Shown here in pieces: positions 12,217 through 31,432 of a DNA stretch of 36,818 nucleotides. The notes below the pieces were generated by a model that did not search any database, was not told the DNA's origin, and saw nothing but the letters and a program-made list of their open reading frames with translations. The stretch's first letter is position 1. Every line of letters begins with the position of its first letter. Position numbers and translations under genes: made by a program. Source of the stretch: a virus. Where the stretch lies: the IMG/VR virus record IMGVR_UViG_3300050821_003690, positions 1 through 36,818 of that record, one strand, 5' to 3'.

Positions 12217-13904
12217 TATGGCGTCAAGTTCGTAAGAGAGTAAGGATACCAAGTAGTTCCAATAAAAATCCAAGCTAATGAAACGATATAGCCTGCTGGA
12301 ATAACAGATCCCGCTGTATTAATTGTTAAAGTTGTTAATAGTCCCCCAGATGCATAATTGTAAAGGTTAGCATTCACTGGATTAATAGTTACGCTCCATG
12401 TGCTATTTTCACTTAAATTGTATCCGGCATTTCCTAAGATATTAATGATGATAACCCTCCCATTTACAAGTGCGGAATTATTATTTGGCAAATTGACCGT
12501 TATAGCTGTACCCGAACTACACATACATTGAACATAATAATCTCTGGTCAACCCATTATCACACGTATATGGTGTAACAGTTCCTGCTGGAATTATTACA
12601 GGATGATAACTAACTGCACCTAAAGTAGAATATCCTTCATTATTAATTGTTGCTGATGGTTGAATGGTTAAAACAGATCCACTTGGAACAATATTTACAC
12701 CAACCATATTTAATGTTCCATTAGAAGTAATAGTACTACTGGAATCAGTAGTTATAGATGAACTATTAAGGACTGATATAAGGCCTCCATGATTAACATT
12801 CATTGTTCCCAATAAAGTAGTACCAGTACCAGTGATATTAGTTAATCCTTGTAAATTGAGTGCCCCATTGATTGTGAAATGCCCTGTATTATCTGTAGTA
12901 CCATTCAAACTCCCGTTTAGAAATATTGAAGTGCCAAGATCCATTGTTAATGATGTTCCAGTTTCAAAGTGTTCGATAGCCGCACTTTTCCACAATAATT
13001 CCTGCGCTCCAGACATATTAATTGTACCATTAACAAAATCAGTAGTACTACCAACTATATTAAAATTACCACCATCAACAAATAATGTACTGGTATTATC
13101 AAGACTCAATTCACAACCATTTGTAAGACTAATGGTGCTATTATTATTAACAACTAATTGACTCTGATTATAGAGAGATAAAACTTCTGTATTATAAACA
13201 CTTTGTGCAAACGTAAACCATTTAGAAGAACCATCTGTATAAAGAGCAACATATCCTGCAGCTGCCGGAAGAACAAATGCTGTTAATCCAGAATCTCCAA
13301 AAACGTTTCCTGAACCAGGAGCTACTTGAATAGTGATTGTATTAACATTGGAAAAATTAATCATCCTAAATAAATAGATTCTTCCAATAGCGTTGGGTGT
13401 AATGAAAGCGGCAACTGGAAGAACAATAGTTATAGGCCCACCTGTAGTATCAATATCCAAACAATTATAAGTATCTGTTGGGAGAATAGTTGCGTTAGAA
13501 GTAATGGGCCCACGAATAGACCAATTAGTAGCCGGACCATTGGTTGAAGGCGCCAAAGTATTTCCAGCTGTAATTTGAATAGCAATGCCATCAGCATTAT
13601 TGTAGTATAGATTTCCATTAGATGCATAGACATTATTTACATCTTGCGATCCCACTAAAGTAGATGTGTTATTGACAAACTGAACAGAACGAACATTGCT
13701 CAGATTATAGCCATCCAATGATAAATCGCCACCAACGATCTGTCCAGAGATATTGATTAGTCGGCCGCCATATTGAGAACCATCATGATCATGCGCATCA
13801 ATGATAACAAGATCTGCATTAATCTCGGACGCATAAGCTGGACCCGATTGATTAAGATTAGGAACAGTTAGATCCATATAGGTTGTATTAGTTGTGTTTG
13901 GCAT
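12216..13904 (-). CDS. Tail needle / fibre-type protein with beta-helical shaft
   Basis: 562 residues, ATG at 13904 with AAGGAAC seven bases upstream. The N-terminal 45 residues (MDLTVPNLNQSGPAYASEIN, then IDAHDHDG) form a motif that I recognise from virion-anchoring ends of phage fibres and needles. Residues about 55-90 include a GGDLSL turn like the repeats in the seam-spanning fibre. The middle, about residues 240-420, is a series of short Ser/Thr/Asn/Gly strands typical of a beta-helix or triple-stranded shaft. The C-terminus is a separate beta domain. It lies just upstream of the hub gene, where P22 has genes for tail completion. It may be the needle, a spike or a fibre. The sequence alone does not decide. 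Confidence 0.7.
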   Translation of the reverse strand: MPNTTNTTYMDLTVPNLNQSGPAYASEINADLVIIDAHDHDGSQYGGRLINISGQIVGGDLSLDGYNLSNVRSVQFVNNTSTLVGSQDVNNVYASNGNLYYNNADGIAIQITAGNTLAPSTNGPATNWSIRGPITSNATILPTDTYNCLDIDTTGGPITIVLPVAAFITPNAIGRIYLFRMINFSNVNTITIQVAPGSGNVFGDSGLTAFVLPAAAGYVALYTDGSSKWFTFAQSVYNTEVLSLYNQSQLVVNNNSTISLTNGCELSLDNTSTLFVDGGNFNIVGSTTDFVNGTINMSGAQELLWKSAAIEHFETGTSLTMDLGTSIFLNGSLNGTTDNTGHFTINGALNLQGLTNITGTGTTLLGTMNVNHGGLISVLNSSSITTDSSSTITSNGTLNMVGVNIVPSGSVLTIQPSATINNEGYSTLGAVSYHPVIIPAGTVTPYTCDNGLTRDYYVQCMCSSGTAITVNLPNNNSALVNGRVIIINILGNAGYNLSENSTWSVTINPVNANLYNYASGGLLTTLTINTAGSVIPAGYIVSLAWIFIGTTWYPYSLTNLTP

Positions 13905-13933
13905 TGTTCCTTATATGTTATTTTATTATTAGA

Positions 13934-14009
13934 TGGCTCTGCCCCTACGATTCGAACGTAGATGTCTTTGGTTAACAGCCAAATCTATTGCCAGTTATAG
14001 TAGAGCAGA
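13934..14009 (-). tRNA. tRNA-Asn (anticodon GTT), CCA encoded
   Basis: A full 76-nt cloverleaf folds on the minus strand. The acceptor stem TCTGCTC pairs with GGGCAGA (one G-T wobble), followed by discriminator G and an encoded CCA. The D stem is CTAT/ATAG with a GG-containing loop. The anticodon stem is TTTGG/CCAAA with loop CTGTTAA, giving anticodon GTT. The T stem is CTACG/CGTAG with loop TTCGAAT. It lies between the 120-residue tail gene (4 bp away) and the needle gene, inside the late operon, so it must be cut out of the late mRNA by host RNases. Confidence 0.95.
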
Positions 14010-14013
14010 ATAT

Positions 14014-14376
14014 TTAGAAAACGAGAACGTCTACAATAACAGCTGCCGAACTATTTAGCACTAAATATGTAGATGTATTATATGTGGTTGAGTCTTGTTC
14101 ATCATAGACTAATGGTGCAATGCCTCTTTGTCTTACCAAACTCCATCCTGATAAAGTTCTTCCCAAAGTATGCGGAATGACATTAATTCCAGCAGAAAGT
14201 TGAATGTTGGTAAGAACTATACTATCCAACTGAGTTTTCTTTAATAGAGATGAGAAAATTTGTTGTAGGTTAGTGATAAGTGAGTTGTAAGCACGAATAA
14301 CAGCCAAGACAGTTGTGTTGGTGTTTTCTGATAATTTAGTTGTCGTCGTAAATTGCGGTAAGCTCAAACTCCCCAA
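14014..14376 (-). CDS. Small tail/head-fibre-type structural protein, TTG start
   Basis: About 120 residues. The C-terminal half (HTLGRTLSGWSLVRQRG, then VYDEQDS and a closing VIVDVLVF) is a small beta domain that I know from short phage structural proteins near adaptor genes. The N-terminal half is a helix with heptads. The only early start in frame is TTG at 14376 (or TTG at 14367), inside the last codons of the GIY-YIG gene, with AAGAGGG just before. The start may have been altered by insertion of the endonuclease. No ATG is available before the conserved part. Confidence 0.7.
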   Translation of the reverse strand: MGSLSLPQFTTTTKLSENTNTTVLAVIRAYNSLITNLQQIFSSLLKKTQLDSIVLTNIQLSAGINVIPHTLGRTLSGWSLVRQRGIAPLVYDEQDSTTYNTSTYLVLNSSAAVIVDVLVF

Positions 14377-14678
14377 CCCTCTTTAGGTAGGTTAATCCCA
14401 CCTCTAACTAAATTATATCCAAACAATCGATTTCTACTATTGAAATATTCGATAAAAACACTTTCCATTTTATCTGCAATTTCTTGGTTATAACAAATGC
14501 CGATTACTTCATATGAAAACTTATCAATTCCATATTTCTTAATTGCATTATAAAGATAAGGGCAACTTTCATATCCTTCACCATTATTAAATCGCTCTTC
14601 CAATGTCTTCCAAGTCTGCCCTACATAAACTTTTTGATTGATTCTGTTTGTCAACTTATAGATTGTACATTGTGTCAT
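14364..14678 (-). CDS. GIY-YIG homing-type endonuclease, short
   Basis: 104 residues from ATG at 14678. The GIY-YIG core is present: IYKLTNRINQKVYVGQT at residues 5-21 carries the two tyrosine strands, an Arg follows at about residue 29 (LEERF), a Glu lies in the helix (MESVFIEYF), and GYNLVRGG closes the domain. There is almost nothing after the catalytic domain, so target-site DNA binding is minimal or lost. The 3' end overlaps the start of the 120-residue tail gene by 13 bases. It is probably a mobile gene that cuts related phages lacking it. Confidence 0.85.
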   Translation of the reverse strand: MTQCTIYKLTNRINQKVYVGQTWKTLEERFNNGEGYESCPYLYNAIKKYGIDKFSYEVIGICYNQEIADKMESVFIEYFNSRNRLFGYNLVRGGINLPKEGWGV

Positions 14679-14690
14679 ACATTATTTAAC

Positions 14691-15410
14691 TTACTTATTT
14701 ATCCTTTTAGTTTTAAGTGTTTCGCTTATCTTTCTTTTTGTTTCTTCTGATTTTGGTTTGCCATACTGCGGATGATTTTTAGGATCGCTATATAATTCTA
14801 TTAGTTTCTGTCTTTGTTCTTCTGGTAATTTTCTTCCCTTTTTGAATGAACCGGAATTTGGTTTCATTTCTATTTTAGACAAGCTTTCTCTAATTTTTTG
14901 TCTAACTTCTTCGGGCCTTGTCATTCCCTTATTTGGCCCAATATACCCAACCTTATACTGCGTGGGTTCTAAACGCTCCAATATGAATTCTTTCTTTTCA
15001 TCAGAATAGTCTAACCATCTTTGAGTATTTTTGACACTCATTAGTTGTTTGAACTCTTCTGTTTTAGGAGCGTTAAAACCTCCTTCGGTGCAATTATATC
15101 CTTTGCCATTCCAAATAAGACTATCATATTGCTTGATTAGTTCTTGTTCCATTAGATTGGCATCATCTTGACACAGGCCCCTTTGTCCATGTTGGCAGGT
15201 GCAAGGTAATATGCAAGATGCTATAACTGTAAACTCGAAATTATGGTTGCCGTGCTTTTTGATTGCACAAGCAATTTTAGATTTAGGTTTATCTTCTGCG
15301 GCATCATTTCTGTGCCCATACCATCTGTGTCGCGGATCAACCGTTTGTCCAATGTAGTTTTTCTGATTGACCATGTTTGTTATTTTGTAAAGATAGTGTC
15401 GTTTTGTCAT
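14691..15410 (-). CDS. GIY-YIG homing endonuclease with NUMOD-type C-terminal motifs
   Basis: 239 residues. I chose ATG at 15410 because a near-ideal GGAGG lies seven bases upstream, and an earlier start at 15437 has no such site. The catalytic domain occupies residues 1-100: LYKITNMVNQKNYIGQT, an Arg-containing HRWYGHR, a Cys-rich loop (CILPCTCQHGQRGLC) and a Glu helix (LMEQELIKQY), closing at GYNCTEGG. The second half holds repeated basic helical motifs, RQKIRESLSK and KRKISETLKTK, like the NUMOD3 DNA-binding modules of homing enzymes. The loop cysteines could bind zinc. It sits directly in front of the second, shorter GIY-YIG gene, between two virion genes. Confidence 0.9.
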   Translation of the reverse strand: MTKRHYLYKITNMVNQKNYIGQTVDPRHRWYGHRNDAAEDKPKSKIACAIKKHGNHNFEFTVIASCILPCTCQHGQRGLCQDDANLMEQELIKQYDSLIWNGKGYNCTEGGFNAPKTEEFKQLMSVKNTQRWLDYSDEKKEFILERLEPTQYKVGYIGPNKGMTRPEEVRQKIRESLSKIEMKPNSGSFKKGRKLPEEQRQKLIELYSDPKNHPQYGKPKSEETKRKISETLKTKRINK

Positions 15411-15467
15411 GAATGACCTCCGCACACTATATATCACGATATTGCTTGTTTTAGGCTATTGGAGGAA

Positions 15468-24308: not shown

Positions 24309-24504
24309 TGGTTGCCACTTTGAGGTAAGGTTCTGGGAGCGGTTGTTCGGCATCAATTACTTCATATAGAAAATATGTTTGATGATTGGATAGAATTTTC
24401 CAACTTTCTTCCCCAACAGTTACAATATCATTAGGTTGAAAAGAAGCGAGCATCTTGAACATATGGCCCGGAAAATCTTTATCATCATAATCAAATCGAT
24501 TCAT
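24301..24504 (-). CDS. Small late-operon protein, unknown
   Basis: 67 residues from ATG at 24504, chosen because GAGGAA lies six bases upstream. An alternative start at 24537 lacks such a site. It overlaps the preceding gene by 14 bases and the small terminase by 8. The pattern FQPNDIVTVGEESWKILSNH followed by YFLYEVID suggests a compact SH3-like or ribbon beta protein. Function unknown. Confidence 0.65.
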   Translation of the reverse strand: MNRFDYDDKDFPGHMFKMLASFQPNDIVTVGEESWKILSNHQTYFLYEVIDAEQPLPEPYLKVATND

Positions 24505-24694
24505 CTGGTTCCTCGAGGACTTGTAGTTGTTTTGCATAAACTTGCTGTAAATGCGTTAATCCTATTTCAAGAGCCAAATTAATAAGATGTCCTCTTGTTA
24601 AAATTGGATCAATAAGAAGAAGAATATCGTTAACCAACAATAAATTTTTTTTATTAATGTGATACGGTATTCTTTTTGTAGCCAATGTAGCCAT
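24491..24694 (-). CDS. Ribbon-helix-helix-like DNA-binding protein, first late gene
   Basis: 67 residues, ATG at 24694. The arrangement of a strand (TKRIPYHIN), a first helix (KKNLLLVNDILLLID) and a second helix (TRGHLINLALEIGLTHLQQV) fits a ribbon-helix-helix fold. It is the first gene of the leftward block, and the predicted transcript start lies only about 8 bases ahead of its ATG, with no clear ribosome site. One copy of the ATGTGCCG repeat sits in its promoter, so self-regulation is plausible. The fold is inferred by eye. Confidence 0.55.
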   Translation of the reverse strand: MATLATKRIPYHINKKNLLLVNDILLLIDPILTRGHLINLALEIGLTHLQQVYAKQLQVLEEPDESI

Positions 24695-24708
24695 ACGTTA
24701 ATGTCTTG

Positions 24709-24736
24709 ATATTACCATGTGCCGCGCTAATGTTAA
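24709..24736 (-). promoter_or_regulatory. Probable late promoter with operator in the spacer
   Basis: On the minus strand TTAACA (24736-24731) is followed after 16 bases by TAATAT (24714-24709), preceded by TGG as in an extended -10. The motif CGGCACAT (24724-24717) lies wholly inside the spacer. Transcription would start near 24702 and lead into the RHH-like gene and the packaging genes. Confidence 0.5.
24717..24724 (+). repeat. ATGTGCCG motif, copy 1 (core only)
   Basis: The 8-base core matches the three longer copies further right, but the flanks differ (CC before, CG after). It lies between the -10 and -35 of the probable late promoter. Confidence 0.6.
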
Positions 24737-24794
24737 TTTTAGTTTAATTAGAAAAAGTTTATTAGAAGAAAAATAAGAGAAGATCAGAAGATCT

Positions 24795-24849
24795 GGTAAC
24801 TCTCTGTAATAACCCCCCACCTTTAGGTGGGGGTTTACTGTAGGTTACC
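24795..24849. repeat. 55-bp interrupted palindrome with GC-rich core
   Basis: The outer arms are GGTAAC (24795-24800) and GTTACC (24844-24849). The middle arms are GTAA and TTAC, and the core CCCCCACC pairs with GGTGGGGG around a TTTA loop (near 24813-24833). Only small internal loops interrupt the stem. The core ends in just three T's, so it is a poor intrinsic terminator in either direction. It may be an origin hairpin, a cruciform or a barrier between the divergent transcripts. Confidence 0.7.
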
Positions 24850-24857
24850 GTGTTGCT

Positions 24858-24870
24858 GCTATGTGCCGAA
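24858..24870 (+). repeat. GCTATGTGCCGAA motif, copy 2
   Basis: It matches the first 12 bases and the ATGTGCCG core of the consensus GCTATGTGCCGATT, then diverges. Its core starts 97 bp before the inverted copy 3. Confidence 0.75.
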
Positions 24871-24954
24871 TACTATAGGCTGCTGATGATAGAGGCTCCA
24901 AATTACTTAATGATTACGGTTAGTTGCAAAGGGCACTTTTTGACCTGCAGATAG

Positions 24955-24968
24955 AATCGGCACATAGC
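24955..24968 (-). repeat. GCTATGTGCCGATT motif, copy 3, inverted
   Basis: AATCGGCACATAGC on the plus strand is the exact reverse complement of copy 4. It lies downstream of a weak TTGACC element and could overlap a rightward promoter. Confidence 0.8.
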
Positions 24969-24987
24969 TTCCAATACCTTCCCACCT

Positions 24988-25007
24988 ATTTTTCAATATT
25001 GGAAAAT
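24988..25007. repeat. 20-bp AT-rich near-perfect palindrome
   Basis: ATTTTTCAATATTGGAAAAT is self-complementary apart from one T/G pair. It may be an operator for a dimeric regulator or an easily melted origin element, and it overlaps the candidate -35 of a rightward promoter. Confidence 0.55.
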
Positions 25008-25029
25008 TTTCTATCAATAAGGATATATT
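24999..25029 (+). promoter_or_regulatory. Candidate early promoter
   Basis: TTGGAA (24999-25004) and TATATT (25024-25029) are 19 bases apart, a long spacer. Transcription would begin near 25036, upstream of the motif copy at 25055-25068 and of the helicase gene. Other weak -10-like elements exist nearby, so the exact promoter is uncertain. Confidence 0.25.
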
Positions 25030-25054
25030 AAAGACAGAAGACAAAACGGCATAT

Positions 25055-25068
25055 GCTATGTGCCGATT
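25055..25068 (+). repeat. GCTATGTGCCGATT motif, copy 4
   Basis: Exact copy of the 14-base consensus, 17 bp before the helicase ATG. A CGGCA just upstream (25047-25051) makes an imperfect dyad CGGCA...TGCCG. A protein bound here could block early transcription or translation. Confidence 0.8.
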
Positions 25069-25085
25069 AACCTGCGGAGCTTACG

Positions 25086-26282
25086 ATGAATAATAGAATA
25101 CAGGCAGTTAGAGACGCGCTAAACATTGAGCATTACGATATGGCTCAAAGTATTTTGGAAGATATGTATGAGAAGCGCGAAATTAGTCTTGAGCAGTTCA
25201 AGAAGGAAGCTTCCGCATTACCAGATTTTCTCAAAATGAAGTTGCCAAAGCCATCTTTGAAATTTACTCCAATCAAAATGATTAAGGTAGGTTTGCATAA
25301 TATGAGCCCAAGAGAGTTTATTTTAGAGCGTTTCGATATGGAGCGTAAGAACGTCATTTTATTATGTGGAGGATCGAACGCCGGTAAAACCATTTTTGCA
25401 CAATATTTAGCTTTGGCTGTAGCTAATAACCTTCCGCTATTCGGAAAGTTTTCTATAAATAATCCTGAGAAGGCTAAGAGGGTATTGCATATCGACTATG
25501 AACAGTCAGAAATTCAGACTCAAAGACGATATGAGCGATTAGCTGTGTCTCTTGGTTTATCATCGTTTTGCATTGATCGTATCAAACTGCCTTATAAACT
25601 TGATGATATGACTATTGCTAAAGATGAGATGAAGGCAGCATTGATTGAGTTAATGAATGGCTATGATATGGTAATGGTGGACAGTTTGCGCCAATCAATG
25701 CAATGCGATGAAAACAGTTCGCAAGTTAGTTATGTATTAGAGCTACTTAAGTCTTTGGCAGAAGTAACAAACACGGTGATGTTATTAATTCATCACAAGG
25801 GAAAGAACCCAAATAGTAATAATAAGGATCAAGGTCGTGGTTCAAGTGCCATCTATGCTGGTGTGGATATTGTCATTGATTTGGATGCTGATGAAGAGGG
25901 CAATATTACTTTGAAATGCCAAAAGAATCGAGATCAAATATATTTTTCATCACTCATCTATCGTATGCAAGACGGCGGCCAAAAGGTGGAAAATCAACGA
26001 TGTACTGAGATGTTGCAATTAATGTTAGTTGATGGAGAAGTGAGAAAAGACAATAGAATTGAAACAATTCTCAATTTCGTAACCAACGGACAAGAGATAA
26101 ACTATACTGATCTTTATGATCAAGCGGGCAAAGGAGATAAGGGGAAGTTTAAGGCTTTGATTGCAGATATGGTTCAACAAAAACTATTGATGGAGAAGCA
26201 GTTGGGAAAAGCGAGAATGTTTAGCATGGCTGAGAATGGATTAGCCTATTTGGCTTATGAGGTAAAATATGAAACAGATTAA
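25086..26282 (+). CDS. RepA/RecA-fold replicative helicase-type ATPase
   Basis: 398 residues, ATG at 25086 with CGGAG eight bases upstream. The core has Walker A GGSNAGKT (95-102), an acidic strand VLHIDYEQ (133-140), Walker B MVMVDS (195-200), a sensor strand MLLIHHKGK and a GRGSSAIYAGVD loop (250-261). This order is that of RepA-like hexameric helicases (AAA_25 class). The C-terminus, about residues 320-390, reads as a winged helix (VTNGQEINYTDLYDQAG then FKALIADMVQQKLLME). The first 60 residues are a helical domain. It is the first early gene beside the putative origin, so it probably opens the origin or loads host replisome parts. No phage primase or polymerase accompanies it. Confidence 0.85.
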   Translation: MNNRIQAVRDALNIEHYDMAQSILEDMYEKREISLEQFKKEASALPDFLKMKLPKPSLKFTPIKMIKVGLHNMSPREFILERFDMERKNVILLCGGSNAGKTIFAQYLALAVANNLPLFGKFSINNPEKAKRVLHIDYEQSEIQTQRRYERLAVSLGLSSFCIDRIKLPYKLDDMTIAKDEMKAALIELMNGYDMVMVDSLRQSMQCDENSSQVSYVLELLKSLAEVTNTVMLLIHHKGKNPNSNNKDQGRGSSAIYAGVDIVIDLDADEEGNITLKCQKNRDQIYFSSLIYRMQDGGQKVENQRCTEMLQLMLVDGEVRKDNRIETILNFVTNGQEINYTDLYDQAGKGDKGKFKALIADMVQQKLLMEKQLGKARMFSMAENGLAYLAYEVKYETD

Positions 26283-26496
26283 ATGCGATCATTGCGGAAA
26301 ATTATTAGATAGTGAGTTTGATTTAGTGATTTGGAATCTTGAAAATGGAGAGATCACAGAATTGTCTTTTAGACATGGCAACCGCAGGGGTTGCGACGAT
26401 AGGAACTTCATCTATTCCAGACACATTAAAGACGGCTATGATGTTTTATTAACGGACTGGGCAAATAGCTCATTCAACAAAGGAGATACAGAATGA
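26269..26496 (+). CDS. Small Cys-rich early protein
   Basis: 75 residues, starting inside the last 14 bases of the helicase gene. The N-terminal CDHCGK is a CxxC knuckle. A further Cys occurs in RRGCDDRN, so a zinc site with three or four ligands is possible. The remainder is mixed strand and helix (DLVIWNLENGEITELSF). It may adjust a host enzyme or bind nucleic acid. I do not recognise a family. Confidence 0.7.
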   Translation: MKQIKCDHCGKLLDSEFDLVIWNLENGEITELSFRHGNRRGCDDRNFIYSRHIKDGYDVLLTDWANSSFNKGDTE

Positions 26497-26738
26497 TTAG
26501 ATACTATATTCACGGAGATTATCATGAAACAAATAAAAACGTGATCTATTGTAAGCATTGTGATTATTTTGAGGAAAAAGCACATTTCTATGTGGCACAC
26601 CAACCCGCACACACATCGGATTATGCTTTGGCTATTTGGATGCTGAAACATTTTGAGATACGCAAAGAATATATGAAGGAGGATGGGATACCATCTTCAT
26701 ATTATCGTCCTGATAATGCACCAAATGCTTGGATGTGA
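26493..26738 (+). CDS. Small CxxC early protein
   Basis: 81 residues, overlapping the previous stop as ATGA, with AAAGGAG upstream. YCKHCDYFEEKAHFYVAH carries one CxxC pair and two His, a plausible zinc site. A helical region follows (YALAIWMLKHFEIRKEYM). Function unknown. Confidence 0.68.
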   Translation: MIRYYIHGDYHETNKNVIYCKHCDYFEEKAHFYVAHQPAHTSDYALAIWMLKHFEIRKEYMKEDGIPSSYYRPDNAPNAWM

Positions 26739-26743
26739 AGACT

Positions 26744-26857
26744 ATGCATGATTATTGTGATGAATGCCAACAATACGAAGAACTCATTGAGGTTTGGGAT
26801 GAGGATACTAATGAAGTTATGTATATATGCGAAGAATGTTATTTGGAGGATGAATGA
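26744..26857 (+). CDS. 37-residue double-CxxC miniprotein
   Basis: A short frame from ATG at 26744 to TGA at 26857, ending in an ATGA overlap with the next gene. It has two CxxC pairs, YCDECQ at residues 4-9 and ICEECY near the end, with a short acidic beta hairpin between. That is a complete four-cysteine zinc ribbon. The coupling to both neighbours and the full ligand set argue that it is real although very short. Confidence 0.7.
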   Translation: MHDYCDECQQYEELIEVWDEDTNEVMYICEECYLEDE

Positions 26858-27207
26858 AAAAAAATACGTGCCCACTTTGTAATAGAAAATGCAAACCAAT
26901 TGAAGAAGATCTGCTTGGCGAAGATTATGTAATGTGTCCTATTGGACATTATATCTACAATTATGCTGATTATCAAGGACATGCTCATTCATATAGATAT
27001 GTCATTGGAAAATATATTGTGTTTCACTATGAAGGTGATTTATTTCATACAGGCGATTATTCTCAACAACTAATAACAATTGAAAACTCAAATGATAAAA
27101 ATTCTGCTATTGAGTTTCGTAATATAGATTTTGAAGAGTTATTTGGAGTTAAATATGTTTCTCAATTAACTGAAAATAGAATTGCGCTTGTGAGGGTTTT
27201 TTCATGA
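26854..27207 (+). CDS. Cys-rich early protein, unknown
   Basis: 117 residues, ATG at 26854 preceded by TTGGAGGATGA. The start has CPLCNRKC, a third Cys follows at VMCPIGH, giving a likely zinc site. The middle is aromatic and beta-like (YADYQGHAHSYRYVIGKY). It probably belongs to the host-takeover set. It has no known relatives that I can name. Confidence 0.7.
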   Translation: MKKNTCPLCNRKCKPIEEDLLGEDYVMCPIGHYIYNYADYQGHAHSYRYVIGKYIVFHYEGDLFHTGDYSQQLITIENSNDKNSAIEFRNIDFEELFGVKYVSQLTENRIALVRVFS

Positions 27208-27845
27208 AAAAATGTGAATGTGGTGTTTGTAAAAGATGTAAACACAGGGTGCATCAAAAGAAATGGTATGATGCACATAAAGAGGAAGCCAAAAAATATC
27301 AGAGAACATATCAAAAAAAATATTATAAATCTCATAAAAAAGATAGATGTGAATACATGAGGGCGCGTTATCATGATAATCAAGAACGTATTCTTTTGAA
27401 TGCCAAAAATTGGAAGTGGCGCATAGAGGGAAAATATACAGAAGCCAAAAGGCTCGCATTAAAATATAGATTTTATCAACAATTTTTAATGCCACTTCAC
27501 TATCTACCCAACCAAGAAGAAGTTTATTTGCTCATGACCAAAATGATTGAATGTCCTACTTTAACAAAGAATCAGAGAAATATTCTTGTCATGTTCAGGG
27601 CCGGGCATGACGCCTTAACCATCGCCAAACTTACAAATAGACAGCAGACCACACTTTGTGGTGCCATTAATGGAGCGCAGGTCTACAAAGAAGACGGAGA
27701 GGTTCGTTTTTATGGCGGAATTGCAAAGAAAGTAATTTGGATTTGTCAAAATTTTCAAGCCAAAGATCCATATCTAAAAGCGCTCATTGAGGAATTGGAA
27801 GAAAAAAAATGTTCCATGCATTTGGGCAAGAAAATCTGCCAATAA
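27204..27845 (+). CDS. Zinc-finger plus helix-turn-helix protein, putative regulator
   Basis: 213 residues, overlapping the previous gene by ATGA, with GAGGG upstream. The N-terminus CECGVCKRCKHRVHQKKW is a zinc finger-like cluster, followed by a very basic helix. The central segment, about residues 118-155, reads as a helix-turn-helix (TKNQRNILVMFRAGHDALT then IAKLTNRQQTTLCGAI) like LuxR or sigma region 4 folds. It is the only sizeable DNA-binding candidate in the early block. It might switch on late transcription. The role is inference. Confidence 0.65.
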   Translation: MKKCECGVCKRCKHRVHQKKWYDAHKEEAKKYQRTYQKKYYKSHKKDRCEYMRARYHDNQERILLNAKNWKWRIEGKYTEAKRLALKYRFYQQFLMPLHYLPNQEEVYLLMTKMIECPTLTKNQRNILVMFRAGHDALTIAKLTNRQQTTLCGAINGAQVYKEDGEVRFYGGIAKKVIWICQNFQAKDPYLKALIEELEEKKCSMHLGKKICQ

Positions 27846-27890
27846 TCAGATATATAATTAGTATAACTGATAAAACCGAAAGAGTTATAA

Positions 27891-28046
27891 GTGAAATTTA
27901 CGAGACAGATAACATTCAAACTGACGGAAGAACAATTTGCCAAGTTGGAATCGTTCATAGATAAACTAAAGCTTCCATCAACAGTTGGTGCGGTATTGAG
28001 ACTATTAATTGATCAAATGAAGGAGACTGAAAATGACACAAAGTAA
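27891..28046 (+). CDS. Ribbon-helix-helix protein, GTG start
   Basis: 51 residues from GTG at 27891 to TAA at 28046. The strand FTRQITFKLTE and the two helices (EQFAKLESFIDKLK and PSTVGAVLRLLIDQM) give a textbook ribbon-helix-helix pattern, so this is a small dimeric DNA binder. No strong ribosome site precedes GTG. It overlaps the next gene by 14 bases. It is a second candidate for binding the 14-base repeats. Confidence 0.72.
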   Translation: MKFTRQITFKLTEEQFAKLESFIDKLKLPSTVGAVLRLLIDQMKETENDTK

Positions 28047-28332
28047 AGATGATTTACAAGCAAAATATAATGAGTTGTGCAGACAATTGGGAGTATTGCA
28101 ATTAAACAAGCAGCGCAATGTAAGAATCATTGATAAGCAAATTGCAGAATTAGTTGATCAATGCATGACGTTGGAAAAGGAAGCGGAGCATATGGATGCT
28201 ATTGAAAAGGCCACCCAAGAAGCAATTAATAAATTAAATAAGCCAATCAAAACCACATCTGTGACGGATGATGAAGATTTCGATGTAATATTTCCAGGTG
28301 CACGTGCAAATGAAAAGGCGCAAGGAAACTGA
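28033..28332 (+). CDS. Coiled-coil early protein
   Basis: 99 residues, ATG at 28033 with AAGGAG nine bases upstream. Residues 5-70 are continuous heptads (DDLQAKYNELCRQLGVLQ then IIDKQIAELVDQC). The tail is acidic and disordered. It is likely a dimerising adaptor of unknown partner. Confidence 0.72.
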   Translation: MTQSKDDLQAKYNELCRQLGVLQLNKQRNVRIIDKQIAELVDQCMTLEKEAEHMDAIEKATQEAINKLNKPIKTTSVTDDEDFDVIFPGARANEKAQGN

Positions 28333-28386
28333 AGAATAAAGAAGATGCAAGTCCCAATAACTTAACAACACAAATAGGAAACTGCA

Positions 28387-28557
28387 ATGACTTCTACAAA
28401 ATTTGATTACATAAATTCATACATCATAAAACAGTTGGATGATGAGATAAGGGAACTGAAGGAGAAAATGAAGAATTTGGAAAACAGGATGAGAGAGTTA
28501 GAAGTGTCGAACTTCTATGGCTCGGTAAAATCAGGGAGATCTCAATATGACCAATAA
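28387..28557 (+). CDS. 56-residue coiled-coil protein
   Basis: A short frame from ATG at 28387 to TAA at 28557. It is a leucine/methionine heptad helix (IIKQLDDEIRELKEKMKN then LENRMRELE) with a short polar tail. Its end overlaps the next gene by 11 bases, the habit of this operon. No strong ribosome site is visible, so confidence is moderate. Confidence 0.6.
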   Translation: MTSTKFDYINSYIIKQLDDEIRELKEKMKNLENRMRELEVSNFYGSVKSGRSQYDQ

Positions 28558-29086
28558 AAATAACGAACAATCGCCAAAGAGCGCCATCGATGATGAGAAG
28601 TTTTGCACGCCTGCTTATCAAGTAAAAATGATTGATGAAGCATTTGGTAGATTGGAAAAGAAGATAGATAGATTATTGGAATCCGCCAACCATCCATCGA
28701 TGCCAAGAATTAATGGAATACCTGTTGAATTAACTAAAGAGCAACTCAAACATTTGGATGACCTACCTCGTGAAATTAGATATGATGCAAAAGAGACATC
28801 GATGCCAAAAGAAGTCTATACATCAGAAGTTGTTAGCCAGTTCAATAGATATACTCCGCTATCATTTGCAATAGATCAGAAGATAAAAGATGATAATGCA
28901 ACTGGCGACCCTCATGGCGCCAAAATTAATCTATCTGAAGTAATTAGACATTTGAAAACATTAGAAGCTGGTGCACAGATTAAAACAATAGGTTTTGAAC
29001 CGTTATCAGTTTCAGATGAAATGAAATGTGAATTGCAGAAGGCGATTGAGATTCTTGAAAAACATAATAATGAGAATGGAAAATAA
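28547..29086 (+). CDS. Early protein, unknown
   Basis: 179 residues, ATG at 28547 with GGGAGA upstream. A helix region (AYQVKMIDEAFGRLEKKIDR) is followed by a central Pro/Lys-rich part and a C-terminal helical bundle (LSEVIRHLKTLEAGAQ then KCELQKAIEILEKHNN). It has no Cys cluster and no enzymatic motif. Function unknown. Confidence 0.72.
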   Translation: MTNKNNEQSPKSAIDDEKFCTPAYQVKMIDEAFGRLEKKIDRLLESANHPSMPRINGIPVELTKEQLKHLDDLPREIRYDAKETSMPKEVYTSEVVSQFNRYTPLSFAIDQKIKDDNATGDPHGAKINLSEVIRHLKTLEAGAQIKTIGFEPLSVSDEMKCELQKAIEILEKHNNENGK

Positions 29087-29269
29087 ATGAAACCAGAAAT
29101 AGATTTATCGTATGCAATAAGAATATTGACTTCTCATGCATTTCACGTAGCAAATAATACAGGCAAAGAACTATCAAGAGAACAGATACTGTCTATTGAT
29201 TTGGCTATTGGTCTCTTACAAGATCAGCAAACCGCATTAGAAAACTCGCAAAAGAAGGTATCGAAATGA
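29087..29269 (+). CDS. 60-residue helical protein
   Basis: ATG at 29087 directly follows the previous TAA, with ATGGAAAATAA as ribosome site. Two helices separated by a turn (SYAIRILTSHAFHVANNTG then REQILSIDLAIGLLQDQQ). It may be a small dimeric adaptor. Function unknown. Confidence 0.68.
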   Translation: MKPEIDLSYAIRILTSHAFHVANNTGKELSREQILSIDLAIGLLQDQQTALENSQKKVSK

Positions 29270-29487
29270 GTGATGTAGATGAACTTATGAATAAAGCAAT
29301 GGTTCAAATTTCAGCCGCTGCAAGTAATCCACCAGATTCAATATTGGTGGATCCAAGATTGCTTGAGATAACTAAATTGCAGTTTGAGAATGCAGAACTA
29401 AAAGCCAAGATTAAACGATTGCAAAAGAAGAATAAGAAGTTAATGGAAAAGAATACAGAATTGCGCCAAAATGAGAGTGAAAAATGA
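29266..29487 (+). CDS. Basic leucine-zipper-like protein
   Basis: 73 residues, ATG at 29266 overlapping the previous gene as ATGA, with AAGGTATCGAA upstream. The second half is a zipper of Leu/Ile with a very basic face (LQFENAELKAKIKRLQKKN and onward). It could bind nucleic acid or a host factor. Confidence 0.68.
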   Translation: MSDVDELMNKAMVQISAAASNPPDSILVDPRLLEITKLQFENAELKAKIKRLQKKNKKLMEKNTELRQNESEK

Positions 29488-29666
29488 TGAGTATTATTGA
29501 TTGGTTTAGAGAGCAAGTATATCTTAATAAGATGACCAAAATCCATTATGCACAATATAAAAATTGGCTGGTAGAAAATGGTAAAACACATACACCAGAA
29601 TTATCACATCAATTCTGGAAAGAAGAGATAGGGCCGCTATGGTCAAATGAAACGAATGGAGAATAA
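29484..29666 (+). CDS. 60-residue early protein
   Basis: ATG at 29484 overlaps the previous stop. The sequence is helical and Trp-rich (IDWFREQVYLNK, QYKNWLVENGK, QFWKEEIGPLW). Function unknown. Confidence 0.65.
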   Translation: MMSIIDWFREQVYLNKMTKIHYAQYKNWLVENGKTHTPELSHQFWKEEIGPLWSNETNGE

Positions 29667-29861
29667 ATGACTTGTAATAATTGTGAAGATAATGCGGTTG
29701 ATGTCTATAATGAAGAAAAGATAAAAGATTTGGCAGCATATTTAAAAACGCATTCGGTCAATGAATTTAAAGAGAGACTTTATATAAATATGTGCTCAAC
29801 ATGTAGATTGTCTATTTTGCACATGTGCGATAGAGCTGAAGAGCGAACGGAGAATAAATGA
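29667..29861 (+). CDS. Four-Cys zinc-knuckle miniprotein
   Basis: 64 residues, ATG directly after TAA, with GGAGAATAA upstream. CNNCEDN at residues 3-9 and CSTCRL at about 43-48 give two CxxC pairs separated by a helix. This is a full zinc-binding set. Confidence 0.7.
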   Translation: MTCNNCEDNAVDVYNEEKIKDLAAYLKTHSVNEFKERLYINMCSTCRLSILHMCDRAEERTENK

Positions 29862-30115
29862 TTTGTCTTTGCAACATCGATATAAAACCATTGTATGATG
29901 GATCTGTAAGTTGCCATAAATGTGAAATGTATTATCGAGAAGGTATTATCTCTGAAATAAGAACACATAATGCAGATTTAGAAAATAACATATTTTGGAA
30001 GAAACTAACGGCTGGCAAAGAAGAAAATGATTTTATCAGTTGGTATTATTATAGAGATAATGTTTATACTATAGATGAATGGGAAAGAGTAATTAAACTA
30101 AAGGCTTTCTTATGA
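29858..30115 (+). CDS. Cys-containing early protein
   Basis: 85 residues, overlapping as ATGA, with GGAGAATAA upstream in the same form as the gene before. CLCNID near the start and CHKCEMYY at about 19-26 make a zinc ribbon. The C-terminal half is Trp/Tyr/Lys-rich (NDFISWYYYRDNVYTIDEW). Confidence 0.68.
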   Translation: MICLCNIDIKPLYDGSVSCHKCEMYYREGIISEIRTHNADLENNIFWKKLTAGKEENDFISWYYYRDNVYTIDEWERVIKLKAFL

Positions 30116-30264
30116 CTCATCCATTTGTTATTTCCAATAAAGGAAAACTAATTAAAAATCATGATTTTGCGACCGTTTTAATAAAACTATATGATATACA
30201 AGTAGCAATCAATAATTTTCAGATTGCAGAAAGTTGCCCAAAAATCAATGAATCCACAAAATGA
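30112..30264 (+). CDS. 50-residue early protein
   Basis: A short frame from ATG at 30112, overlapping the previous stop as ATGA, to TGA at 30264. It overlaps the methyltransferase-like start by 17 bases. No motif is recognised. Support comes from the continuous overlap pattern of the operon. Confidence 0.5.
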   Translation: MTHPFVISNKGKLIKNHDFATVLIKLYDIQVAINNFQIAESCPKINESTK

Positions 30265-30766
30265 TATTGTTTTTACTGACATCAAATTTGCTAAACGTAT
30301 AATAGATTACTTCTCGCCTCAATTCAAACTTGGTGATAAGTTCTTTGATCCATGCAAAGGTTCCGATGGTTATTGCATTCACTCTGATAAAGAAGGTGGA
30401 GCTTTCTATAAGAACATGCCACAACCAAAACTATTCGCAGAACTAACTGAAGGTATCGATTGCATTTCTATTATCGAACCTATTCAATGGTCAATAACTA
30501 ACCCACCATTTTCTGCCAAAGCTTATCGTAAAGTAGCACAACATTGTGCTAAAATATCTGACAATGTGATATTCTTGGTAAGATTAGATGTAGCTTTAGG
30601 GGTTGGTGCAAGGATTAAAGATTTTACCAAAGAGAAGCTTGCATTGAAAGAGATTATAGTTTGCAGATATGAGGATGCAGGATTTGCTGCCAGAGGATTT
30701 ACACTTGGAGTTTTTCATTGGCAAAAGAACTATGTAGGTGATACTAAATGGACATATTGGGTTTGA
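30248..30766 (+). CDS. Orphan DNA adenine-methyltransferase-like protein
   Basis: 172 residues from ATG at 30248. A TTG further upstream is possible but less likely. Motif I appears as FFDPCKGSDGY (32-42) and the catalytic motif as TNPPFS (84-89), the usual signs of N6-adenine methyltransferases. The region after that is a normal Rossmann half (NVIFLVRLDVAL), but no target-recognition domain is seen and no restriction gene is adjacent. The length is short, so the enzyme may need a partner or may be a degenerate anti-restriction or regulatory methylase. No other phage gene nearby explains it. Confidence 0.75.
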   Translation: MNPQNDIVFTDIKFAKRIIDYFSPQFKLGDKFFDPCKGSDGYCIHSDKEGGAFYKNMPQPKLFAELTEGIDCISIIEPIQWSITNPPFSAKAYRKVAQHCAKISDNVIFLVRLDVALGVGARIKDFTKEKLALKEIIVCRYEDAGFAARGFTLGVFHWQKNYVGDTKWTYWV

Positions 30767-30785
30767 AGGGCGCTCTCGCGTAAGA

Positions 30786-30808
30786 GATCTATACTCCCCC
30801 TATAGATC
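30786..30808 (+). promoter_or_regulatory. Perfect 8-bp stem-loop after the methyltransferase gene
   Basis: GATCTATA (30786-30793) and TATAGATC (30801-30808) flank a CTCCCCC loop. It lies 20 bases after the gene's stop. It could be an operator or a weak terminator, but no T-run follows. Confidence 0.5.
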
Positions 30809-30862
30809 CCCCATCGTTTTGTCGAGATCCAGTTTGAAAATATCGGAAAAATTATCCGCCCC

Positions 30863-30916
30863 TTGACGGCGCCCCGATCGTCCCTAAGTTGCGAGGAGGC
30901 CAAGGAGGCCCGTCAA
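30863..30916 (+). promoter_or_regulatory. GC-rich leader with inverted repeat and duplicated AGGAGGCC
   Basis: TTGACGG (30863-30869) pairs with CCGTCAA (30910-30916), which ends just before the ATG at 30918. Between them AGGAGGCC occurs twice, nine bases apart, and the second copy gives a strong ribosome site nine bases before the ATG. Folding the arms could hide or expose that site. The stretch is much more GC-rich than its surroundings. Confidence 0.45.
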
Positions 30917-30917
30917 A

Positions 30918-31121
30918 ATGGAATGTGATTTTTGCCACTGTGTAAAATCTGATGTTGAAACTGTAGATAGTCCTCATTCATTATTTCTATTATGCCAATC
31001 TTGCTATGATCAAGAAGTTAAGATTCAAACTATGCTTAAAATATCTTGTCCTGAGATATTTTGCGATTGTGAAGAGTGTGATGAAGCTTGTTCTAATGAG
31101 AATTGTGAAGGTAAATCATGA
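30918..31121 (+). CDS. Cysteine-dense zinc protein
   Basis: 67 residues, ATG at 30918 with AGGAGG upstream. Cysteines cluster as CDFCHC (3-8), CQSC (26-29) and CDCEECDEACSNENC at the C-terminus, about ten in all. This could hold two or three zinc ions. It is the first gene after the GC-rich leader. Confidence 0.7.
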   Translation: MECDFCHCVKSDVETVDSPHSLFLLCQSCYDQEVKIQTMLKISCPEIFCDCEECDEACSNENCEGKS

Positions 31122-31432
31122 ATGATGTTGATATTTGGCAGATTGTTTCGATTGTATCTTTTTTGGCTGTATTTGTCGGAAGTTTTGTTATCGTGGCTTG
31201 TGTAATGGCCAAAGGATTTAGAGCTGCCGATGCATGGTTGAAAGCTCCAAAAACAATTCCTCCCACTAGAGAACCAATGGATCCAGAAATGAAATCGGCT
31301 CTTATATCAGCTGGAGTTACTGTGGGCTTCTGGAGTATTGTTTTTAGTATTGTATCCTTCCCTATAGCTATTATCCTATTATTTTTATCAGGCAATAATT
31401 GCAGTTGTGGTCATTGCCATAAGTGCTGTTAA
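31118..31432 (+). CDS. Two-helix membrane protein with Cys tail
   Basis: 104 residues, overlapping as ATGA. Two hydrophobic helices (about 7-32 and 62-92) suggest an inner-membrane hairpin. The C-terminus ends in CSCGHCHKCC, five cysteines within ten residues. It is the last early gene, and its stop overlaps that of the converging late gene. It may be a holin-like or host-envelope modifying protein. The Cys tail is unusual for a holin. Confidence 0.65.
   Translation: MNDVDIWQIVSIVSFLAVFVGSFVIVACVMAKGFRAADAWLKAPKTIPPTREPMDPEMKSALISAGVTVGFWSIVFSIVSFPIAIILLFLSGNNCSCGHCHKCC

Follow-up and report, generated by a model that had tools for sequence, protein, structure and literature searches.

What is the role of a short DNA word that recurs four times between the two gene blocks of an uncultured phage? 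The window analyzed, IMG/VR virus record IMGVR_UViG_3300050821_003690, comprises 36,818 bp. Its ends share a 36-bp repeat, and an 811-aa leftward open reading frame (ORF) continues intact through the end join (36397 to 2050). The genome is thus complete and circular, with a length of about 36.78 kb, which means that counts of the word in the window are whole-genome counts.

The divergent gap of a two-block circular genome

According to the ORF map, one block (25086-31432) reads rightward and everything else reads leftward. The blocks meet head-on at about 31430, and their only divergent junction is the gap listed in Table 1, an arrangement that would suit a switch between two operons. This gap is also the largest noncoding stretch of the genome, accounting for 391 of 1,291 noncoding bp (about 30%). 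The leftward block starts with the 67-aa protein and small genes, followed by terminase, portal and structural genes, and the rightward block starts with the RepA-like helicase, followed by small proteins without assigned function and a methyltransferase-like protein. A GIY-YIG/NUMOD3 homing-endonuclease-like gene was noted among the structural genes (14691-15437, minus strand), as was a tRNA-Asn(GTT) gene at 13934-14009 (minus strand).

Table 1. Positions of the features in and around the divergent gap, and of genes noted in a distant relative (last line).
Feature	Position	Strand	Basis or remark
67-aa protein, first leftward gene, candidate regulator	24491..24694	-	no family match
Sole divergent intergenic gap (391 bp), proposed control region	24695..25085		ORF map and gap list; circular completeness
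Leftward promoter-like site TTAACA-16-TAATAT, TG before second hexamer (predicted)	24709..24736	-	consensus match only
Copy 1, 8-mer ATGTGCCG only	24717..24724	+	in spacer of leftward promoter-like site
Strong imperfect hairpin, GC-rich stem, terminator-like	24795..24849		folding; z -3.9
Copy A, GCTATGTGCCGA	24858..24869	+	sequence match
Copy B, GCTATGTGCCGA, inverted	24957..24968	-	matches C over 14 bp (24955-24968)
Weak rightward promoter-like site TGGAAA-18-TATATT before helicase (predicted)	25000..25029	+	consensus match only
Dyad around copy C, CGGCATAT-GCT-ATGTGCCG	25047..25065	+	one mismatch between arms
Copy C, GCTATGTGCCGATT	25055..25068	+	17 bp before helicase ATG
RepA-like RecA-fold (AAA_25) helicase, first rightward gene	25086..26282	+	Pfam 5e-21; PHROG helicases
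Ribosomal-protein-S21-like and pilin-like genes in relative G007	L117:9690-9932 and 13098-14780	-	by eye

Read from left to right, the gap contains the leftward promoter-like site with copy 1, an A+T-rich stretch (88% at 24735-24774), the hairpin, copies A(+) and B(-), a second A+T-rich stretch (82% at 24995-25034) with the weak rightward promoter-like site, and copy C(+). The hairpin is very stable, with few T residues after the stem on either strand. It is located between the two divergent promoter-like sites, where there is no obvious transcript for a terminator to end.

Copies of the repeated word

The 8-mer ATGTGCCG is present in exactly four copies in the 36,818 bp, starting at 24717(+), 24861(+), 24958(-) and 25058(+), and all four are confined to the gap. 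Only 0.42 copies are expected in the window, and four copies were reached in no shuffle. When the gap itself was shuffled with dinucleotide composition preserved, four or more copies of an 8-mer arose in 12 of 5,000 cases (0.24%). The longer 12-mer GCTATGTGCCGA occurs three times in the order +,-,+, at 24858, 24957 and 25055, and a 12-mer with three copies arose in none of the 5,000 shuffles of the gap. Copies B and C are identical over 14 bp (AATCGGCACATAGC and GCTATGTGCCGATT, respectively). The repeated word is therefore real. Four motifs in a divergent control region, three of them sharing a longer word with one copy inverted, had been proposed in a previous sequence-only reading, together with core spacings of 97 and 100 bp and a copy 17 bp before the helicase start, and all of this was borne out by the positions given above (copy C ends at 25068, the ATG is at 25086). 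Further copies scattered in coding regions, which that reading had named as grounds for abandoning the idea, were found nowhere in the whole circular genome. The starts of the 12-mers are 99 and 98 bp apart, and the orientation of the copies alternates at steps of about 98-144 bp.

Copy 1 is the weakest member of the set, as it has only the 8-mer in common with the other copies and differs from the 12-mer by 3 mismatches; extra similarity to the other copies was looked for in its flanks and none was seen. More generally, flank similarity around the cores was not significant, with p = 0.06 for the best pair (A/B) and values above 0.2 for the other pairs, and the idea that the cores belong to larger, diverged repeats was consequently rejected. 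Three further readings of the word were discarded as well. All copies carry GGCAC, as sigma-54 sites would, but no GC follows 10 bp on (by eye). A phage RNA-polymerase promoter, suggested by ACTATAGG after copy A, is absent at copies B, C and 1, and no RNA polymerase was found among the large proteins of unassigned function that were scanned with Pfam and PHROGs. Finally, a -35 element of a phage sigma factor would call for a -10 at 17 bp, which is not present (by eye).

Regarding its surroundings, copy 1 overlaps one predicted promoter and copy C is situated just downstream of another. The sequence-only reading had placed one copy between the -10 and the -35 of the late promoter; copy 1 indeed lies between the two hexamers, but the promoter is a predicted one and the underlying scan, which gave 7 such sites with 3.3 expected by chance, is near chance level. 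Two properties of the gap go beyond that first reading, namely the dyad around copy C and the pairing of the inverted copies, in which B pairs perfectly with A (12 bp) or with C (14 bp), so that A and B form the arms of a potential long stem-loop. The strong hairpin at 24795-24849 is likewise an addition to that reading. No dyad was seen at sites A and B. Taken together, the word is well placed and probably functional.

Operators, origin sites and further explanations

A control region had been put forward earlier, in the form of operators of an early/late switch or iterons of an origin. This idea is supported, since the genome is a closed circle of two blocks with a single divergent junction and the word occurs only there; strict iterons do not fit the alternating copies and their wide steps. 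As the best explanation we favor that the word represents operators of a phage-encoded DNA-binding protein governing the divergent operons, a reading of the sequence to which we assign slightly less than an even chance. One such protein would recognize the repeated word, and the four sites in the junction would serve as its operators, with copy 1 inside the putative leftward (late) promoter, copy C and its dyad partner in the helicase leader, and A and B in between. The bound protein might then raise or lower the expression of the early helicase block, the late block or both, and sites about 98 bp from each other might be brought into contact. Pointing to operators are the location of all four cores in the only divergent gap, their clustering far beyond shuffles, the position of copy 1 within the spacer of the best-matching leftward promoter-like site, and that of copy C in the helicase leader, where it makes up one arm of the dyad with its single mismatch. 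Against them stand sites A and B, which have no dyad and no clearly similar flanks, the promoters, which are consensus matches only, and the relatives examined, among which no homologous control region was found.

The candidate proteins also count against operators. Ribbon-helix-helix folds had been assigned to the products of 24491-24694 and 27891-28046, and an HTH fold to that of 27204-27845, yet these assignments found no backing in Pfam, NCBIfam or the PDB. The 67-aa, 51-aa and 213-aa candidates had no matches in these collections or among phages, and family and PDB searches thus assigned no DNA-binding protein among them. When modeled from its sequence alone, the 67-aa protein formed one long helix instead of a ribbon-helix-helix, which is weak evidence, and the AlphaFold model of the 213-aa protein, with a pLDDT of 46, was of too low quality for interpretation.

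Protein-binding sites that recur within a divergent control region are familiar from other phages. In mycobacteriophage BPs, operators of gp33 are located in the divergent gap between genes 33 and 34, one of them between the -10 and the -35 and another downstream of the opposing promoter (PMC4557955). The full sites in BPs are built from unequal halves, one being dyad-like and the others having degenerate halves; the half site is a 12-bp palindrome, further sites are found elsewhere in the genome, and the binding protein is proven (PMC4557955). The gap described here resembles that of BPs in having several sites of one word, a similar placement relative to the predicted promoters, one dyad-like site and otherwise degenerate halves. 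In contrast to BPs, the 12-mer is non-palindromic, the sites are confined to one gap and a binding protein is only proposed.

The main rival to operators, which we regard as possible though rather unlikely, is that the gap is a replication origin and the word an initiator-binding box of the DnaA or P4 type, i.e., short, non-palindromic and of mixed orientation. The A+T-rich stretches would melt and the adjoining RepA-like helicase would be loaded there, with the helicase itself or another early protein acting as initiator and perhaps also regulating its own gene. Two features expected of an iteron origin, a replication gene directly adjoining the gap and A+T-rich stretches within it, are indeed present, and the strong hairpin and a cumulative GC skew minimum near 23-24 kb agree with an origin as well. 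Yet the skew tracks gene direction and the skew at fourfold sites gave no clear replication signal, direct repeats in tandem, spaced by roughly one or two helical turns, were not found, and no primase or initiator was identified. In plasmid RSF1010, RepC binds tandem 20-bp direct iterons at the origin oriV, which is served by the primase RepB and the helicase RepA. Like origins of this type, the gap combines a gene for a RepA-type RecA-fold helicase with noncoding repeats, A+T-rich tracts and hairpins; unlike RSF1010, it has no tandem iterons and no recognized primase or RepC. Priming at a hairpin as in RSF1010 was kept only as part of the origin explanation. DnaA-box origins carry short non-palindromic boxes in mixed orientation and at irregular spacing near an A+T-rich tract. 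The copies of the word are likewise short, non-palindromic, of mixed orientation, irregularly spaced and near such a tract, but the sequence of the DnaA box is unrelated to TTATCCACA, and the DnaA boxes expected of a DnaA-dependent origin were not found in the gap.

The sequence by itself does not distinguish operators from origin sites, and both roles may coexist. Replication proteins often regulate their own genes. It is conceivable, though we consider it quite improbable, that one phage protein, perhaps the RepA-like helicase, couples origin firing with the early/late switch via a non-palindromic 12-bp word arranged in alternating orientation at near-equal steps of about 98 bp. The sites indicate where a regulator or initiator would be expected to bind, and they delimit a compact region of this uncultured phage that is amenable to testing as a control region and/or an origin.

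Two further explanations are less likely than operators or an origin. The repeats might act as RNA in the rightward leader, where B would pair with A or C, or C would fold on itself before the ribosome site, resulting in a leader switch, an attenuator or a 5′ stabilizer for the helicase block. On either strand, the predicted fold of the whole gap is more stable than those of shuffled sequences (z -4.8 and -3.5), and the A:B stem and the C hairpin contain G.U pairs on the plus strand that correspond to A.C mismatches on the minus strand, a tolerance that weakly hints at a role as RNA. The A:B pairing is not independent evidence, however, since inverted copies pair automatically. Moreover, no clear plus-strand promoter was found upstream of A and an Rfam covariance-model search gave no match at threshold, leaving a structured leader RNA improbable overall. 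Alternatively, A/B and B/C could be inverted recombinase sites that flip pieces of roughly 86 bp and thereby switch a promoter. Perfect inverted pairs of 12 and 14 bp do flank 86-87 bp, but there is no evidence of a flipped form, and neither the 20 proteins scanned with PHROGs nor those scanned with Pfam included a recombinase or integrase, so that such an invertible switch appears highly improbable.

Relatives of the phage

Viral scans with single helicase, terminase, capsid and portal sequences yielded no usable relative; a terminase profile search led to a family of uncultured phages. The closest relative, G002 (IMGVR_UViG_3300032954_000043, roughly 40 kb), shares 55% identity in TerL and 65% in the capsid protein. 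It shares only the late structural block, which is syntenic, and is without the helicase block; the absence of the word from G002 is therefore uninformative. Proteins of the helicase block had no match in any relative, with a helicase relative in 0 of 20 records, and the word cluster was likewise seen in 0 of the 20 related records examined, in which the early block differs. No comparable clusters of other words were observed in the divergent gaps of G002, G006, G007, G011 and G017, and a dual-pattern scan of viral contigs for the geometry of A and B gave no match. Protein matches to sequenced phages amounted to about 23-28% for terminase and helicase, and no DNA match was found in phages or plasmids. 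The window thus represents an uncultured phage that only distantly matches sequenced phages, with a control region that has no DNA-level match.

Several observations in the relatives stand apart from the word. In G014, a distant relative, a unit of about 230 bp that includes a T run is repeated in tandem within a noncoding stretch (L123:12572-13167); these repeats resemble duplicated small-RNA or terminator units and are unlike the word cluster of the window. In the distant relative G007, a ribosomal-protein-S21-like protein just upstream of the terminase and two type IV pilin-like proteins were recognized by eye. G002 carries a CRISPR array (L114:3966-4569) with about 9 repeats of GTCTCAGATGTAAAGGCTCTGAGATGCCATTGCTAG and 8 spacers, for which no significant match was found in the other loci or phage records examined. 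Beside the array, a 582-aa Cas12 is encoded (L114:4593-6341, minus strand). Among solved structures, this protein best matches the DNA-binding Cas12m (23vw, E 7e-61), and PADLOC matched it to Cas12f (2e-82) and Cas12u1 (9e-77). This small, phage-borne Cas12m-like system is worth a separate look.
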